The position numbers and the translations under genes are program-made. The notes below the pieces were generated by a model. The model saw only the letters and a list, made by a program, of their open reading frames with translations. It made no database searches and was not told the origin of the DNA. Shown here piece by piece: positions 2,457 through 44,057 of a stretch of 45,585 nucleotides of DNA (positions are counted from its first letter, which is position 1; the number at the start of each line of letters is the position of its first letter). This DNA is from Isosphaera sp. (GTDB taxonomy: Bacteria; Planctomycetota; Planctomycetia; Gemmatales; Gemmataceae), in assembly GCA_013822345.1 (NCBI GenBank), contig PNKH01000061.1:1-45585 (forward strand). Direction: 5' to 3'.

Positions 2457-3947
2457 CTAATCGGCCGTCCGCAGGAACACCAGGGAGCGGAACCGGTCGC
2501 CGCCGGGGTCCGGCTGGCGGGCCACCTCGGCGAGCCGGCGGCTCGTCACGATCCGGCCGGCGGCGTGGACGTACTCCGGCGGCATGACCACGACGTGCGG
2601 GCCGGGGGCGGCCAGGCGGTCGTTCAACTCCCCCCACTCGACCAGGGTATGGACCGGCGGCCCGAGGTGGTAGGACAGCAGGTGCGACTCGGTCCGGAAC
2701 TGCAGCACCACCGCCGGGGCCGGGGCGTGCTCCCGCACCGCCGCCGCCAACTCCCGCCGCCCGTCCGGCACCGGCTCCACCGCCGCGACCACCACCGCCC
2801 ACCCGGCCGCGACCGCGGCCAGCGTCAGCCCGACGCCCCATTTCGCCAAGCGGGCGGTCCGGGCGGTGCGGGTGGCGAGCCACGCCTCGGCGGCGCACCC
2901 CAGGGCGACCGCCGCGAACGGGTACGCCGGCAGGAGGTAGTCGGCCCGCTTGAACCGGGCCGTCGACAGCACCGCGACCATCGCCACCGCCGCCACCACG
3001 CCGAACCGGAATGCCGGGTCGGCGCGCCAGTACCCGGACCGCACCGCCCACCACCCGAGCAGCACCAGGGCCGGCGTCCACGGGAGGAAGTCGAGGGCGA
3101 GCCGCGGCAGGTAGTACCACGCCGGGTGCGACGCCAGGAGCGGCGAGCTGCCGGTGTACCGGGCGACGGTGTGGTGCCAGAAGAAGACGCGGCCGAACTC
3201 GCCGCCGGTGGCGTGGTTCGCCCACACGAACCACGGCAAGGCGACGGCCGCGACGACGAGCGGGCCGAGGAGCACGGACGTGAGGGGGAGCCGGACGGCG
3301 GTGTGCCGGCGCTCGACGACGAGCCACGCCACCGCCGCCGGGCCGATCAGCGCGAGGGCCACCGGCCCCTTCAGCAGGACGGCGATCCCCGCGGCGACGG
3401 CGGACAGGAGGTGCCAGGCGAGCGGGTGTCCGTCCGAGCCGGAAGCGTGAGCGACGGAAGGCCAAGACCCGTCACAGACGTTTACGGCTCGGACGGAGCG
3501 GCAGCCGCGGTAGAACGCCACCAGCGACACCAGCACCGCGCACGCCAGCGGCACGTCGACCCGGGCCGTCCGGCTGATCGCGGTGAAGTGGGTCGCGGTC
3601 GCCAGCCCGACGGCCGCCACCCACGCCGCGGTCGGCCGGCCGTCCGCCCGCAAGACCAGGTACACCAGCCCGACGCACGCCAGCCCCGCCGCCGCCGCCG
3701 GCAGCCGCACCGCCCACCCGGTCACCGCCCCGCCGTTCGCCCACCCGACCGCCGCCGCCGCCCAGTAGTACCCCGGCGGCTTCTGCAGGTCGGCCCGCCC
3801 GTCGAACAGGACCGGCAGGCCCCACTCCCCGGTGTCGAGCATCCGCTGGGCGTTCTGCGCCGCCCGCGCCTCGTGGCTGCTGACCAGGTCGCGGGTGCCG
3901 AGGGTGGCGAGGAACGCGACCGCGGCGACCCCGGCCGCGACGCGCAT
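2457..3947 (-). CDS. ArnT/PMT-like (GT39 family) membrane glycosyltransferase
   Basis: A 496-residue multi-spanning membrane protein. The first periplasmic loop carries SSHEARAAQ (HEAR at 25-28), and PPGYYW (57-62) and the later KRADYLLPAYP motif are typical of the PMT_2/ArnT group, which moves a sugar from a polyprenyl-phosphate carrier to lipid or protein outside the membrane. Substrate unknown. The ATG at 3947 shares one base with the TGA of the ABC gene (TGATG), suggesting translational coupling. Residues about 151-173 (RSVRAVNV...ASGSDG) are encoded by a copy of palindromic repeat A, so the gene carries an in-frame repeat insertion in a loop between membrane helices. Enzyme class is fairly sure; substrate is not. 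Confidence 0.85.
   Translation of the reverse strand: MRVAAGVAAVAFLATLGTRDLVSSHEARAAQNAQRMLDTGEWGLPVLFDGRADLQKPPGYYWAAAAVGWANGGAVTGWAVRLPAAAAGLACVGLVYLVLRADGRPTAAWVAAVGLATATHFTAISRTARVDVPLACAVLVSLVAFYRGCRSVRAVNVCDGSWPSVAHASGSDGHPLAWHLLSAVAAGIAVLLKGPVALALIGPAAVAWLVVERRHTAVRLPLTSVLLGPLVVAAVALPWFVWANHATGGEFGRVFFWHHTVARYTGSSPLLASHPAWYYLPRLALDFLPWTPALVLLGWWAVRSGYWRADPAFRFGVVAAVAMVAVLSTARFKRADYLLPAYPFAAVALGCAAEAWLATRTARTARLAKWGVGLTLAAVAAGWAVVVAAVEPVPDGRRELAAAVREHAPAPAVVLQFRTESHLLSYHLGPPVHTLVEWGELNDRLAAPGPHVVVMPPEYVHAAGRIVTSRRLAEVARQPDPGGDRFRSLVFLRTAD
3430..3496. repeat. palindromic repeat family A, copy A1, inside a coding sequence
   Basis: The left arm (3430-3457) differs by one base from the left arms of copies A2 (16321-16348) and A3 (29186-29213). 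The right arm is decayed and keeps only the outer 12 bp (3485-3496). The 67-bp unit sits in frame in the glycosyltransferase gene and adds about 23 residues. Confidence 0.85.
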
Positions 3948-9793: not shown

Positions 9794-9860
9794 CACCCGC
9801 TCCCTGACGGTCGCGGTTCGCCGCCGCGGGTGGCGAACCGCGACCGTCAGGGAGCGGGTG
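9794..9860. repeat. palindromic repeat family C, copy C1
   Basis: Perfect 29-bp arms (9794-9822 and 9832-9860) around a 9-nt loop, in the 296-bp gap between divergent genes. A second copy with one changed base pair in the stem lies at 26166-26232. No gene is visible in the rest of the gap. Confidence 0.92.
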
Positions 9861-15623: not shown

Positions 15624-15653
15624 GGGCCCGGGGCGCGGGCGTCCCGGCCGCTC

Positions 15654-15764
15654 TTCCTGGACCGCGGCCGTCCCGGCCGCACGTCTACTGCTGGGTCGGC
15701 TCCGGAGTTCCCCCGAAGCCTCCCGAAAGGGGTACCGGCGGCCGGGACGGCCGCGGTCCAGGAA
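15654..15764. repeat. palindromic repeat family B, copy B1
   Basis: Perfect 27-bp arms (15654-15680, 15738-15764) around a 57-nt loop, filling the gap between the sigma-54 activator and the precorrin-2 dehydrogenase gene. The right arm ends in AGGAA, 4 nt before the next ATG, so it also acts as the only Shine-Dalgarno candidate. Other copies lie at 30333-30450 and 31920-32033. Confidence 0.93.
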
Positions 15765-15768
15765 AGCC

Positions 15769-16341
15769 ATGCTCCCGGTGATGCTCGACGTGGCGGGGAA
15801 GCCGGTGGTGGTCGTCGGCGGCGGGGCGGTCGGCACCCGGAAGGCGGCCGCCGCCCGGGCGGCCGGGGCGGTGGTGACGGTCATCCCCGAGGCGTACCGG
15901 CCGGAGCACCTCGACGGGGCGTTCCTGGTGTTCGCGTGCGCCCCGCCGGAGGTGAACGCCGCGGTGGTCGCCGACGCCCGCGCCCGTGGGGTTCTGGTCT
16001 GCTCCGCGTCCGACCCGCCGGCCGGGGACTTCGTCCTGCCGGCGGTGGTCCGGGCCGGCGGCCTGGCCGTGGCGGTGAGCACCGGCGGGGCGGCGCCGGC
16101 GCTGGCCCGGCGGATCCGCGAGAAGCTCGAAGCCGAGTTCGACGCGGCGTTCGGCGCGTGGGTGCGGGTGCTGGCCGAGGTGCGGCCGGTGGTGCTGGCG
16201 AGAGTCACCGACCCCGCCCGCCGGCGCGAGCTGCTGGACGCGTTCGCCGACTGGCCGTGGCTGGCGCGGGTCCGCGCCGAGGGGGCCGACGCGGTGAAGG
16301 CCGCGATGCTGGCGGCCGTTCCGTCCGAGCCGGACGCGTGA
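15769..16341 (+). CDS. precorrin-2 dehydrogenase / sirohydrochlorin ferrochelatase-like (CysG N-domain, Met8p type)
   Basis: A 190-residue Rossmann protein. GGGAVGTRKA (17-26) is the NAD-binding loop and STGGAAPALARRIREKLE (from 104) is the family signature. It would oxidise precorrin-2 to sirohydrochlorin and possibly insert iron, leading to siroheme in the cytoplasm; the methyltransferase half of CysG is absent, as in stand-alone enzymes. The last residues and the TGA stop (16339-16341) come from palindromic repeat A2, so the C-terminus PSEPDA is repeat-encoded. The Shine-Dalgarno seems to come from repeat B1. Confidence 0.85.
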   Translation: MLPVMLDVAGKPVVVVGGGAVGTRKAAAARAAGAVVTVIPEAYRPEHLDGAFLVFACAPPEVNAAVVADARARGVLVCSASDPPAGDFVLPAVVRAGGLAVAVSTGGAAPALARRIREKLEAEFDAAFGAWVRVLAEVRPVVLARVTDPARRRELLDAFADWPWLARVRAEGADAVKAAMLAAVPSEPDA

Positions 16342-16387
16342 GCGACGGCCGACCAAGACCCGTCGCTCACGCGTCCGGCTCGGACGG
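16321..16387. repeat. palindromic repeat family A, copy A2
   Basis: Perfect 28-bp arms (16321-16348, 16360-16387) with an 11-nt loop. The left arm supplies the stop codon of the upstream gene. The right arm ends 5 bp before the stop codon of the convergent serine hydrolase gene, so it may form a bidirectional hairpin between convergent genes. Confidence 0.95.
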
Positions 16388-26165: not shown

Positions 26166-26253
26166 CACCCGCTCCCTGGCGGTCGCGGTTCGCCGTGCGC
26201 CGGGGCGAACCGCGACCGCCAGGGAGCGGGTGAACCCAACAGGGAGCGGGTGA
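26166..26253. repeat. palindromic repeat family C, copy C2
   Basis: Perfect 29-bp arms (26166-26194, 26204-26232) with a 9-nt loop, the same lengths as copy C1, then a partial third arm (CAGGGAGCGGGTGA, 26240-26253). The rest of the 303-bp gap up to clpC holds the terminator at 26291-26320 and no gene. Confidence 0.92.
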
Positions 26254-28971: not shown

Positions 28972-29174
28972 CGCCCCCGGCCCCGGTCGGCACCAACCGG
29001 GGCGGCGGGCGGGGTGAGCGTCCGGGGCCGGGGGTGGGTGCGGGCGTGGGGAGGAGCCCGCCGGGGACGGCCGGGGTGAGAGTGGGGGCCGAAGCTGCGG
29101 AATTCTAGGCCGGGTTCGGGGGTGAATCAAGGCGAGCGTTTGCCCTGGACGCGGCGGCCGGAAACGGGCCATAC
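28972..29174. other. GC-rich divergent intergenic region without a gene
   Basis: The gap between clpC and the SGNH gene is 395 bp. Apart from the possible -10 and repeat A3 I see only G-rich low-complexity sequence (29001-29090). It probably carries control signals for both divergent genes, but none could be identified. Confidence 0.5.
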
Positions 29175-29263
29175 TCCGCCCCGTTCCGTCCGAGCCGGAC
29201 GCGTGAGCGACGGGTCTTCCTCCTCCGTCGCTCACGCGTCCGGCTCGGACGGAACGGGGCGGA
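29175..29263. repeat. palindromic repeat family A, copy A3
   Basis: The longest copy: near-perfect 39-bp arms (29175-29213, 29225-29263) with an 11-nt loop. The inner 28 bp equal copy A2. The loop read on the other strand ends AAGAC like the loops of A1 and A2, so this copy is inverted. Its right end overlaps the GGAGGG Shine-Dalgarno (29261-29266) of the SGNH gene. Confidence 0.93.
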
Positions 29264-29273
29264 GGGCGAAGCC

Positions 29274-30467
29274 GTGGCCGTCGGCGGGGTGGCGCGAGTC
29301 CGGGTCGGGGCGGCGGTCGGCCGCGCGCGGCGGGTCGCCCTGGCGGCGGCCGGCCTGGCACTGACCCTGGCGGTCGGGCTCGCGGCCGGCGAGGTCTACC
29401 TGCGGGTGACGCCGCCCGGCGACCTGGCCCAGTACCTCGGCGCGGCCGGGCCGCAGGCCGGCCCGTTCCGCCCGGACCCCCGGTACGGCGCCCAGTACCG
29501 CTCCCTCGACGCCCTCGCCGCCGACAACCCCGGACGCCTCGACCCGTTCCGCCCGCTCTTCGGCGACCCGAGCCCGCCGCGGGTGTGGGCGTTCTTCGGC
29601 AGCTCGTTCGCCCAGGCCCCCGGGATGCTCGCCGACACCACCCGGGAACACGTCCCGCGGCGGACGACATTTCACCTCGGGAAGAACGAGATCGTCCCGG
29701 TCCGGCTGGCGCAGGCCGAGTTCCTCCTCGACGCCGGGCTCCCGGTCGAGCGGGTCATCGTCGTGGTGATCCCGCTGGACGGGTACTCGTTCGCGCTGCA
29801 CGGGCTGGACCAGGTGCGGGTCACCGCCGGCGGCGGGCTGGCGTACGAGCCGCGCCTGCCGTCCGTCGGGGCGGGGCTGGTGCGGGAGAGCCGGCTCGCC
29901 CTGAAGGGGTGGACGCAGACCGGCCTGCACCTGAACCGCCCCGGGTACGCGACGCGGCAGCTCAACACCCGGTTCGACGGCGCCCCGCTCACCGACTTCA
30001 CCGCCGCGTTCGGCCATTTCGCCGAAGCCCTCGCCCGCTGCCGGGTGCCGGCGACGGTGCTGCTGCTGCCGAACCACGAGCAGGTGACGCGCGGGGCCGG
30101 GTTCGCGTTCCAGGACGCGGTCGCGCCGGCGTTGCGCCAGCAGGGTTACGACGTGTGCGACGTGCGGGCGGCGTTCCTCGACTACCCCGACAAGCCGGGG
30201 CTGTTCATCCCGGACAAGCACTTCTCGCCGGCCGGGAACCGGCTGCTGCTGGCGGCGCTGCTCCGCCACCTGAAGGCCACCGACCCGCGGTCGGCCGACC
30301 TCCCCGACCCCGACGCGGTGCGGCCGGCCGCTCCCCTGGACCGCGGCCGTCCCGGCCGCCCCACCGACACGGCGCGGGGACGCCAGCGGCCCGCCCGGGA
30401 GCGGGCGGGTCGGGGCAGGCGGAGCGGCCGGGACGGCCGCGCTCCAGGGGCGGGGGTGCGGCCGTGA
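29274..30467 (+). CDS. SGNH-hydrolase-like protein, AlgJ/AlgX-type O-acetylation partner
   Basis: A 397-residue protein with an N-terminal membrane anchor (about 19-40). FFGSSFAQ (Ser110/Ser111) matches the nucleophile block of SGNH/AlgX-like acyltransferases, and PDKHFSPAGN near residue 315 supplies the D-x-x-H-like pair. It probably works outside the membrane, moving acetyl groups supplied by the MBOAT protein onto a polysaccharide. GTG start, fixed by GGAGGG 7 nt upstream. The gene overlaps the MBOAT gene by four bases (GTGA). Residues from about 354 to the end are Arg/Gly/Pro-rich and encoded by palindromic repeat B2, so the native protein probably ended near residue 350. Confidence 0.82.
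   Translation: MAVGGVARVRVGAAVGRARRVALAAAGLALTLAVGLAAGEVYLRVTPPGDLAQYLGAAGPQAGPFRPDPRYGAQYRSLDALAADNPGRLDPFRPLFGDPSPPRVWAFFGSSFAQAPGMLADTTREHVPRRTTFHLGKNEIVPVRLAQAEFLLDAGLPVERVIVVVIPLDGYSFALHGLDQVRVTAGGGLAYEPRLPSVGAGLVRESRLALKGWTQTGLHLNRPGYATRQLNTRFDGAPLTDFTAAFGHFAEALARCRVPATVLLLPNHEQVTRGAGFAFQDAVAPALRQQGYDVCDVRAAFLDYPDKPGLFIPDKHFSPAGNRLLLAALLRHLKATDPRSADLPDPDAVRPAAPLDRGRPGRPTDTARGRQRPARERAGRGRRSGRDGRAPGAGVRP
30333..30450. repeat. palindromic repeat family B, copy B2, inside a coding sequence
   Basis: 27-bp arms (30333-30359, 30424-30450) with one mismatch and a 64-nt loop. It lies in the 3' end of the SGNH gene and encodes its last 40 or so residues, up to 13 bp before the MBOAT start. Confidence 0.92.
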
Positions 30468-31919: not shown

Positions 31920-32033
31920 CCTGGACCGCGGCCGTCCCGGCCGCTCCACCGGTGCGGCGCGGGGGGCTGGTCGGTGACAAGCCTGCGCGCCGGCGCGGGG
32001 CAGGTGGAGCGGCCGGGACGGCCGCGGTCCAGG
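31920..32033. repeat. palindromic repeat family B, copy B3
   Basis: Perfect 31-bp arms (31920-31950, 32003-32033) with a 52-nt loop, starting 16 bp after the MBOAT stop codon. With B1 and B2 it shows that family B keeps its arms but varies its loop. Confidence 0.94.
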
Positions 32034-32109
32034 GGGCGCGGCGTTTGCCGCTACGCCCCCGGCCGGCTGGGTGGTACACTACCGGGGACCCGCCCTGGAG
32101 CATTCCCCG

Positions 32110-34339: not shown

Positions 34340-34540
34340 AGCCGCGGAGCGGCGACCGAGGGTAGCCAGGGGTGGAGCGCAGCGCAACCCCTGGCGGCGG
34401 ACCGAGACAACCCGGGTGTCCGCCGACGCCCGCCAGGGGGTTGCGCCCCGGCCCGTCCGTGTGCGCCGCCAGGGGTTCCGGCCCCGCCCTCGCGGGCGGG
34501 ACCTCCACCCCTGGCTACCGTCGGCCGCCGCTCCGCGGCT
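34340..34540. repeat. nested inverted repeat J
   Basis: Outer 37-bp arms (34340-34376, 34504-34540) with two mismatches enclose a second inverted pair (34382-34397 and 34430-34446, GCGCAACCCCTGGCGG type) and a third related unit near 34464-34476. It occupies nearly the whole 236-bp gap between the DUF1553 and DUF1501 genes. Confidence 0.88.
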
Positions 34541-38465: not shown

Positions 38466-38532
38466 CGGGTCCGAGCCCGAGCGCCAGCGAGGGTCAGGCC
38501 CGGACCCTCGCTGGCGCTCGGGCTCGGACCCG
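38466..38532. repeat. long palindrome L
   Basis: Perfect 30-bp arms (38466-38495, 38503-38532) with a 7-nt loop, starting 4 bp after the amidohydrolase stop codon. The remaining 71 bp before sucD holds its leader. Confidence 0.95.
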
Positions 38533-40781: not shown

Positions 40782-41807
40782 ATGCGCGCCATCCAACTCG
40801 AGAAGCCGGAGCACTTCCGCGTCATCGACGTGCCCGAGCCGCCGGCCCCCGGCCCCGGCGACGCGGTCGTCCGCATCCACCGCGTCGGCATCTGCGGCAC
40901 CGACCTGTCCGGCTACCTCGGGAAGATGCCGTTCTTCAGCTACCCGCGCATCCCCGGGCACGAACTCGGCGTAGAGGTGGTGGCGGTCGGCCCCGGCGTG
41001 ACGAGCGTAAAGGTCGGCGACCGGGCCGCGATCGAGCCGTACATCAACTGCCAGACGTGCTACTCCTGCACCCGCGGGCACACCAACTGCTGCGAGAACC
41101 ACAAGACCCTCGGCGTCCACGTCGACGGCGGGCTGACCCCTCTGTTCACCATCCCGGCCCGGAAGCTGCACATCTCGGCGAAGCTCACGTTCGAGCAACT
41201 GGCCCTCGTCGAGACGCTCGGCATCGGCCTGCACGCGGTGAACCGGGCGAACCCGAAGCCGGACGAGACGGTGCTGGTGATCGGGGCCGGGCCGATCGGG
41301 CTGTCGGTGGTCGAGTTCGCGAAGCTCGCCGGCTCGCGGGTGATCGTGATGGACATCAACGAGGGTCGTCTGCGGTTCGTGCGGGACAAGATGGGTGTGA
41401 GTGAGACGATCGCCGCGAAGGGGTTCGAGGATGATGTCAAAATGTTCACCGAGATGACGGGCGGGAAGTTGGGGAACGTGGTGGTGGACGCGACCGGCAG
41501 CGCGAGGAGCATGGCGGCCGCGTACCACTACGCCGGGTTCGCCGGGCGGGTGGTGTTCGTCGGCATCACGCAGGACCCGATCACCTTCACCCAGCCGCTG
41601 ATGCACCGGCGGGAGGTCAGCTTCCTGGCGAGCCGGAACGCGGTGAGTCCGGAGTTCACGCGGATCGTCCGGCTGATCGAGGGCGGGATGCTGGACACCC
41701 GGCCGTGGGTGACGCACTCGGTCCCGTTCGACGCGATGATCGGCGAGTTCCCGAAGTGGCTGCGGCCCGAGACGGGGGTGGTGAAGGCGATGGTCGAGGT
41801 GAACTAA
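40782..41807 (+). CDS. zinc-dependent medium-chain alcohol dehydrogenase
   Basis: A 341-residue protein. The catalytic zinc site is Cys38 and His60-Glu61 (GHE). The structural zinc site is C90-x2-C93-x2-C96-x7-C104. The NAD-binding loop is GAGPIG. It resembles sorbitol/L-idonate dehydrogenases or L-threonine 3-dehydrogenase, so a sugar alcohol or sugar acid is a likely substrate, but the sequence does not fix it. Its last 87 bp are duplicated at 43971-44057. Confidence 0.92.
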   Translation: MRAIQLEKPEHFRVIDVPEPPAPGPGDAVVRIHRVGICGTDLSGYLGKMPFFSYPRIPGHELGVEVVAVGPGVTSVKVGDRAAIEPYINCQTCYSCTRGHTNCCENHKTLGVHVDGGLTPLFTIPARKLHISAKLTFEQLALVETLGIGLHAVNRANPKPDETVLVIGAGPIGLSVVEFAKLAGSRVIVMDINEGRLRFVRDKMGVSETIAAKGFEDDVKMFTEMTGGKLGNVVVDATGSARSMAAAYHYAGFAGRVVFVGITQDPITFTQPLMHRREVSFLASRNAVSPEFTRIVRLIEGGMLDTRPWVTHSVPFDAMIGEFPKWLRPETGVVKAMVEVN

Positions 41808-43968: not shown

Positions 43969-44057
43969 CGGTCCCGTTCGACGCGATGGTCGGCGAGTTC
44001 CCGAAGTGGCTGCGGCCGGAGACTGGCGTGGTGAAGGCGATGGTCGAGGTGAACTGA
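43969..44057 (+). pseudogene. 3' remnant of a second alcohol dehydrogenase gene
   Basis: An 89-bp segment almost identical to the end of the dehydrogenase gene at 41719-41807, with five differing bases (TGA for TAA at the stop). It encodes the 28 C-terminal residues (VPFDAMVGEFPKWLRP then ETGVVKAMVEVN) in frame and nothing upstream; the homology starts abruptly next to the vapBC-like unit. A paralogue or duplicated copy was lost except for its tail. Confidence 0.85.

Follow-up and report, generated by a model that had tools for sequence, protein, structure and literature searches.

We analysed the complete contig C61 (45,585 b; the window), which comes from a draft assembly comprising 226 contigs and 7,468,024 b; genomes, contigs and loci are designated below by G, C and L numbers, respectively. 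A gene on its minus strand codes for a membrane glycosyltransferase and contains, in frame, a copy of a palindromic repeat (repeat A, copy A1), of which two further copies and a related palindrome occur elsewhere in the window (Table 1).

Table 1. Features of the window relevant to repeat A (positions refer to the window; strand given where assigned)
Feature	Position	Strand	Description
Host gene (496 aa), membrane glycosyltransferase of the PMT family with an ArnT fold	2457..3947	-	Pfam, AlphaFold2 model and structure search
Repeat A copy 1 (A1)	3429..3497	-	In frame; residues 151-173 (SVRAVNVCDGSWPSVAHASGSDG)
A1 left arm, 28 nt	3430..3457		1 difference vs A2 and A3
A1 hairpin loop, 11 nt	3458..3468		RNA fold and model match
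A1 right arm, 28 nt	3469..3496		6 differences vs A2 and A3; variant motif also in 5 other sampled copies
Repeat A copy 2 (A2)	16321..16387		Own TGA at 16339-16341 = stop of predicted + strand gene 15769-16341
Repeat A copy 3 (A3)	29186..29252		Arms run on 12 nt into the flanks
Palindrome D, related	38467..38531		Scores 59 bits with the repeat A model; the Y1 gene at G000:C35 is flanked, by eye, by the same family

Repeat A1 and its host protein

The A1 unit of 68 nt at 3429-3496 is 85% identical to positions 16320-16387 and 75% identical to positions 29185-29252. With its flanking T and A it spans 3429-3497, that is 69 nt or exactly 23 codons, and it keeps the reading frame of gene 2457-3947 on the minus strand. 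We built a covariance model (R1) from 32 other copies, including A2 and A3 and excluding A1. In the window search this model matched A1 at 65.7 bits (E 1.8e-11), which makes A1 a member of the dispersed palindromic family A; A2 and A3, both part of the build, scored 92.0 and 91.2 bits. The RNA fold of A1 has an energy of -42.9 kcal/mol (z -6.7), and its stem is imperfect.

The host protein was matched by the Pfam families PMT and PMT_2. By sequence, no solved relative of the protein was found at E <= 10, and a structure search with its AlphaFold2 model (15 aligned sequences, mean pLDDT 87.8, pTM 0.89) gave ArnT of Cupriavidus metallidurans (5f15) as the best match, with a TM score of 0.77 by query length. 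In this model the segment encoded by the repeat falls between the helices 131-153 and 175-193, and the only segments with pLDDT <50, residues 156-159 and 161-171, are both within the repeat-encoded stretch.

A preliminary description of this DNA had proposed an in-frame palindromic repeat in a glycosyltransferase gene, with a left arm almost the same as in A2 and A3 and a product of about 23 residues (151-173) lying in a loop. All of this stands: the match to the A1-free model is accompanied by an intact frame, the left arm has, by eye, a single difference from A2 and A3 over its 28 positions, and the residues form a loop, modelled as disordered, between two helices. The same description considered the right arm, which by eye differs at 6 of 28 positions, as decayed, and took this as a sign of an older event or of selection for coding. 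We do not retain simple decay or the age drawn from it, because A1 shares the motif AAACGTC.GTGACGG (in one arm, with at most 1 mismatch) with five more of the sampled copies; of the six copies, A1 and the one in TilS are inside genes. The best reading of A1 is that it belongs to an asymmetric subfamily and carries a few private changes. Its right-arm variant is largely a subfamily trait and therefore holds little information on age.

Copies of repeat A in the genome

The repeat A model has a stem of 28 bp, 97.8% paired. A pattern made from its outer arm gave 101 matches genome-wide and 0 in a reversed control. Across genomes the model matched 20 of 41 (the window's own included), belonging to 6 of 21 genera, among the best 126 candidates scored per genome; in this search the model also picks up related palindromes. 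In 142 flanks a target motif with a strong consensus was not seen; the only tendencies were a lower frequency of A close to the junction and G or T at -1. Among the genomes searched there was no close relative whose empty site would show a target-site duplication of the MITE type.

At A3 perfect 40-nt arms (29174-29264) extend 12 nt past the repeat into locus-specific DNA. We considered arm growth by template switching as a general trait and rejected it: arms were extended by at least 5 nt in 2 of 71 copies (0.36 expected), hence the extension is not general to repeat A. The window also holds an 87-nt direct repeat, 95% identical, at 41719-41805 and 43969-44055, perhaps from paralogous genes.

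For the placement of the copies we sampled 1.638 Mb of the genome, represented by the window and 80 stretches that were not randomly drawn, and called the genes by means of a home-made caller (1,347 genes, 85.6% coding). The model found 91 distinct places in this sample. The 50 places with a score of at least 60 bits consisted of 34 intergenic ones, 8 overlapping the 3' end of a gene by 21 nt, 7 in genes and 1 overlapping a 5' end, while the 41 places below 60 bits were intergenic in 38 cases and in genes in 3. The overlap of 21 nt corresponds to the position of the repeat's own TGA and involves A2 and seven other copies of at least 60 bits. Copies outside genes show a preference for gene 3' ends. 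Precisely, a 3' end was located within 25 nt of 33 of the 38 non-genic copies, overlaps counted, against 11.5% of random positions and 38.6% of random gaps, two controls that cannot overlap genes; a gene start was nearby for 13 of the 38. The stretches L174-L176, picked for holding copies, were excluded from this 3'-end count and retained in the placement counts and in the palindrome census described below, in which they hold 0 of the 31 in-gene palindromes. We also considered the copies as intrinsic terminators. In none of 43 non-genic copies was TTTT present within 12 nt on either side, and copies at 3' ends therefore do not qualify as canonical U-tract terminators.

The seven in-gene copies of at least 60 bits are in the genes for the glycosyltransferase, TilS (named by TIGR02432), a PutA-like and an alcohol dehydrogenase-like protein and, by eye, a GT2, an Hsp70-like and an SH3-like protein. 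Those of the TilS, PutA-like and alcohol dehydrogenase-like proteins fall in gaps of the alignment to solved relatives. The three weaker places are in the genes for DnaX and, by eye, a second GT2 and a CobW-like GTPase, the palindrome of the latter belonging to another family than A. The preliminary description, according to which the repeat can insert into coding DNA and be tolerated, had proposed a search for further copies inside genes, and such copies are present in the sampled 1.638 Mb. The consensus arm has TGA in one frame only, so that two of the three frames are open on each strand; the sole in-gene copy in the TGA-bearing frame carries TCA at that point.

A scan of the same 1.64 Mb for strong inverted repeats of any family gave 31 palindromes in genes, 4 at gene edges, 61 overlapping genes and 338 between them, against 0, 0, 21 and 362, respectively, in one codon-shuffled control. 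The 31 in-gene palindromes, which extrapolate to about 140 places per genome, consist of 7 of the A superfamily, 8 of family B and 16 others. Family B is present in the window at 9794-9860 and 26166-26232.

The same loops in related genomes

A protein search matched the host protein in 55 of 59 genomes, and none of the 59 had a homologue closer than about 70% identity. We added 16 named loci to the orthologue set, eight of which are second copies of the same records. Loops were obtained for 44 of 46 loci (L090 and L091 were not anchored), and L083 was dropped since its loop was mis-anchored, with a length not multiple of 3. The nearest orthologues, L032, L033 and L034, are 66-68% identical. 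In two of them the loop is short, 9 residues in L033 and 4 in L034 compared with 26 in the window gene, and in L032 it has 38 residues encoded by an unrelated repeat. The segment is hence missing from the orthologues, as the preliminary description had expected. By eye, the same residues were in none of the other 43 loops (the eight duplicate records and the mis-anchored L083 among them), and the only similar loop, that of L080 from a named MAG, is itself encoded by an A-like palindrome (by eye); an orthologue with the same residues in an organism free of repeat A, which would have spoken against an insertion, was thus not encountered.

Glycosyltransferase loops of at least 20 residues occurred in 6 of 18 same-genus loci and in 0 of 12 loci outside the genus (Fisher p 0.057). 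The long same-genus loops differ in sequence, and most of them encode strong palindromes: one of 114 nt, imperfect, in G005, one of 138 nt in G007, one of 72 nt in G015 and a nested one of 243 nt in G016, that of G002 being weak. When the inserts were searched against their own genomes, with the best 40 candidates scored each, those of G005, G007 and G016 gave 40, 83 and 76 match rows, a number that counts both strands and the query place, and that of G015 gave four weak other places. Judging from these matches, the loop inserts are clearly dispersed repeats in three of the four congener genomes searched (G005, G007 and G016; not G015). We also mapped the coding-sequence palindromes with an inverted-repeat score of at least 15 (33 of the 46 loci given), and 4 of 4 in the glycosyltransferase were in the loop; the window copy and the G005 copy are below this cut.

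Of 31 genomes, 28 gave a TilS gene, the exceptions being G004, G007 and G018. The TilS loop in which the A copy lies was at least 20 residues long in 12 of 15 same-genus loci and in 0 of 8 outside the genus (Fisher p 0.00034), where it measured 11-15 residues; L203 was dropped from this comparison. Six of the 12 long loops have an inverted repeat above the cut of 15, those of G005, G008, G010 and G013 have strong folds and, by eye, C-rich palindromic repeats, and those of G012 and G017 have no palindrome. All the 7 assignable TilS palindromes mapped (score of at least 15, 24 loci) were in the loop, and 4 more at edges were not assignable. In L214, the TilS locus of G010, the loop consists of 382 nt of stacked palindromes with stops and a length not multiple of three, so that the gene is broken or the hairpins were misread in sequencing. 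DnaX was considered as a third hotspot and rejected: its linker varies in length, but the alignment of congeners shows by eye no repeat-like peptide, and the DnaX palindrome is present, by eye, in the window's species only.

The loops of the glycosyltransferase and of TilS, bearing unrelated families in several congeners and short in others, represent replicated natural experiments on sites that tolerate foreign peptides.

Candidate transposases, proposed origin of the insertion and known systems

Pfam Y1_Tnp was found at five places of the window's own genome, four of which are flanked by inverted or palindromic repeats. The Y1 gene of C35 has family D on both sides, that of C49 is flanked by the family present in the window at 15627-15764, 30333-30455 and 31920-32035, the match of C75 by the family of window 34340-34540 and that of C14 by another family; the place in C28 has no clear flanking repeat, and repeat A itself flanks a transposase at none of the five. 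The C49 family consists of the unit CCTGGACCGCGGCCGTCCCGGCCGC in inverted pairs, and the same unit flanks the Y1 gene in L093. An inverted pair with GTAGCCAGGGGTGGAG is present at 34340-34540, and its family also occurs on the flanks of the Y1 match in L092. In G003 a Y1 gene has repeat A on both sides (69.6 and 73.2 bits), so that copies of A in that genome, and of the related D in the window's own, flank a Y1 HuH gene, as for RAYT/TnpA_Y1-associated repeats. The loop family of G015 resembles, by eye, the repeats flanking the Y1 genes of G009 and G011.

More in general, the two 400-nt flanks match each other with at least 40 bits at 26 of 29 Y1 loci and at 0 of 43 control loci (TilS 14, DnaX 16, glycosyltransferase 13), with a cut that was set after the scores had been seen and with some matching flanks that are not palindromic-looking (L258, L251). 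This test covered 29 of 35 loci, omitting L096 (duplicate of L241), L266 (other half of L259), L254, L256, L262 and L265; for L259 the end of the gene was placed manually. In the transposases with A or D on their flanks the motifs HVH and Y....Q are present, the latter as YTLHRQ in L241 and YTVNEQ in L244. NCBIfam gave only a sub-threshold IS200 match for the C35 protein.

We consider it probable that A1 arose when a dispersed palindromic element of the REP-like type inserted, in frame, into a loop of the ArnT-fold glycosyltransferase that tolerates it; in this, the mobility of repeat A and the function of the protein are what we infer. The element would have been copied in by a RAYT-like (TnpA_Y1) transposase, with the hairpin being cut and joined, as single-stranded DNA, by the Y1 nuclease. 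Insertions in open frames and flexible loops would survive because the fold is left alone, and most others would be lost. The cost would thus depend on the site, with none after stop codons and little in loops, and copies in structured segments would be removed. The added peptide of 23 residues would have no function of its own.

A different history, in which one early ancestral palindrome in the loop was later overwritten by other families through conversion or nested insertion, so that the species do not represent independent insertions, seems to us unlikely. The nested or stacked palindromes in the loops of G016 and L080 fit such a history, and the tree leaves room for it: when the loop is left out of the tree, at least 4 changes are required for the label 'long loop', the shuffled mean being 5.4 and 51 of 500 shuffles being as low, hence the label is scattered and the tree alone is no proof of independent gains. 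However, loops free of inserts interleave on the tree with insert-bearing species, also beside the window's own species, as G009 and G014 (which have matches to the repeat A model and a short glycosyltransferase loop) do with G000 and G005, and the inserts have by eye no sequence in common.

It is quite improbable that the hairpin or the peptide is retained because it serves a purpose, for example translation pausing, the end of transcription inside the gene or regulation of the enzyme. Non-genic copies do stand at gene 3' ends with stems that stay paired, and changes on both sides were counted in 18 cells, compared with 8 in shuffles, although the pair number (3) is reached by 79 of 500 shuffles; but the loops of the near orthologues are short, the model shows a disordered segment and stem mismatches are more numerous in the in-gene copies of at least 60 bits than in the remaining ones (7 vs 43, Mann-Whitney p 0.0098), a difference that over all the 91 places is not significant (p 0.14, ungapped counts). 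Finally, chance resemblance or an assembly artefact, which a draft of 226 contigs could suggest, is hardly credible given the E value of 1.8e-11 from the A1-excluding model, the protein frame that is intact and aligned with orthologues on both sides of A1, and the different palindrome in the same loop of G016, a genome of 2 contigs.

Beyond the insertion of A1, we suggest only tentatively, as a rather doubtful possibility, that RAYT-type palindromes could be a standing source of new protein loops in this genus, with each species' own families repeatedly landing in, and replacing one another in, the same permissive loops of conserved enzymes (the ArnT-like transferase and TilS). If this were true, about 140 in-gene places per genome (by extrapolation) would be affected, and the length and sequence of loops would evolve by repeat turnover and not by point change. 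The repeats are tied to candidate transposases, and therefore the question of whether coding palindromes are selfish or useful is directly testable.

Among known systems, the Rickettsia palindromic elements (RPEs), of about 150 bp and integrated 44 times in genes of R. conorii (PMC10969869), are similar to repeat A as short palindromes in frame in unrelated genes. Compared with RPEs as they are described, repeat A differs in its length of 69 nt, in its planctomycete host and in that most of its sampled copies are at gene 3' ends, with a link to transposases. The GTAG/CGTC REPs are high-copy palindromes, mostly downstream of genes and in some cases intragenic (Di Nocera 2013, PMC3733652); GTAG repeats supply stop codons, and for recB an insertion at the same site is reported there in two species of Xanthomonas, as a single case. 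Repeat A shares with them the high copy number, the 3'-end preference, the presence of some copies in genes and the supply of stop codons. These REPs have, however, an unpaired GTAG or CGTC tag, and stems of 8-9 bp in the CGTC families (PMC3733652), whereas repeat A has no unpaired tag, its CGTC being inside a paired, symmetric stem, and this stem measures 28 bp.

The class 3 TnpA_Y1 transposases, present principally in Planctomycetes, Acidobacteria and Proteobacteria, have a Y----Q motif and high-copy hairpins with the foot CnGA (PMC6006769). The A- and D-flanked transposases have the Y....Q motif and their repeats contain CCGA (A, D) or CGGA (G003), a class-likeness at the level of motifs; the CnGA of repeat A differs in being paired within the stem. 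The same source describes frame-keeping REP insertions within transposase genes and suggests that loops and linkers may tolerate them; in the parts consulted it does not mention in-gene insertions of class 3 hairpins. In the literature, mostly at the level of listings, we found no report of in-gene palindromic insertions in Gemmata; nothing was listed on RAYT in Gemmata or on intragenic REPs that share a site between orthologues, and among the entries seen for in-frame palindromic elements and Planctomycet the only one was PMC3733652. Intragenic insertion of a REP or RPE is a known kind of event, and the novelty appears to consist in the breadth within one genome, in unrelated repeats that recur in the same loops and in coding repeats tied to class 3-like transposases.
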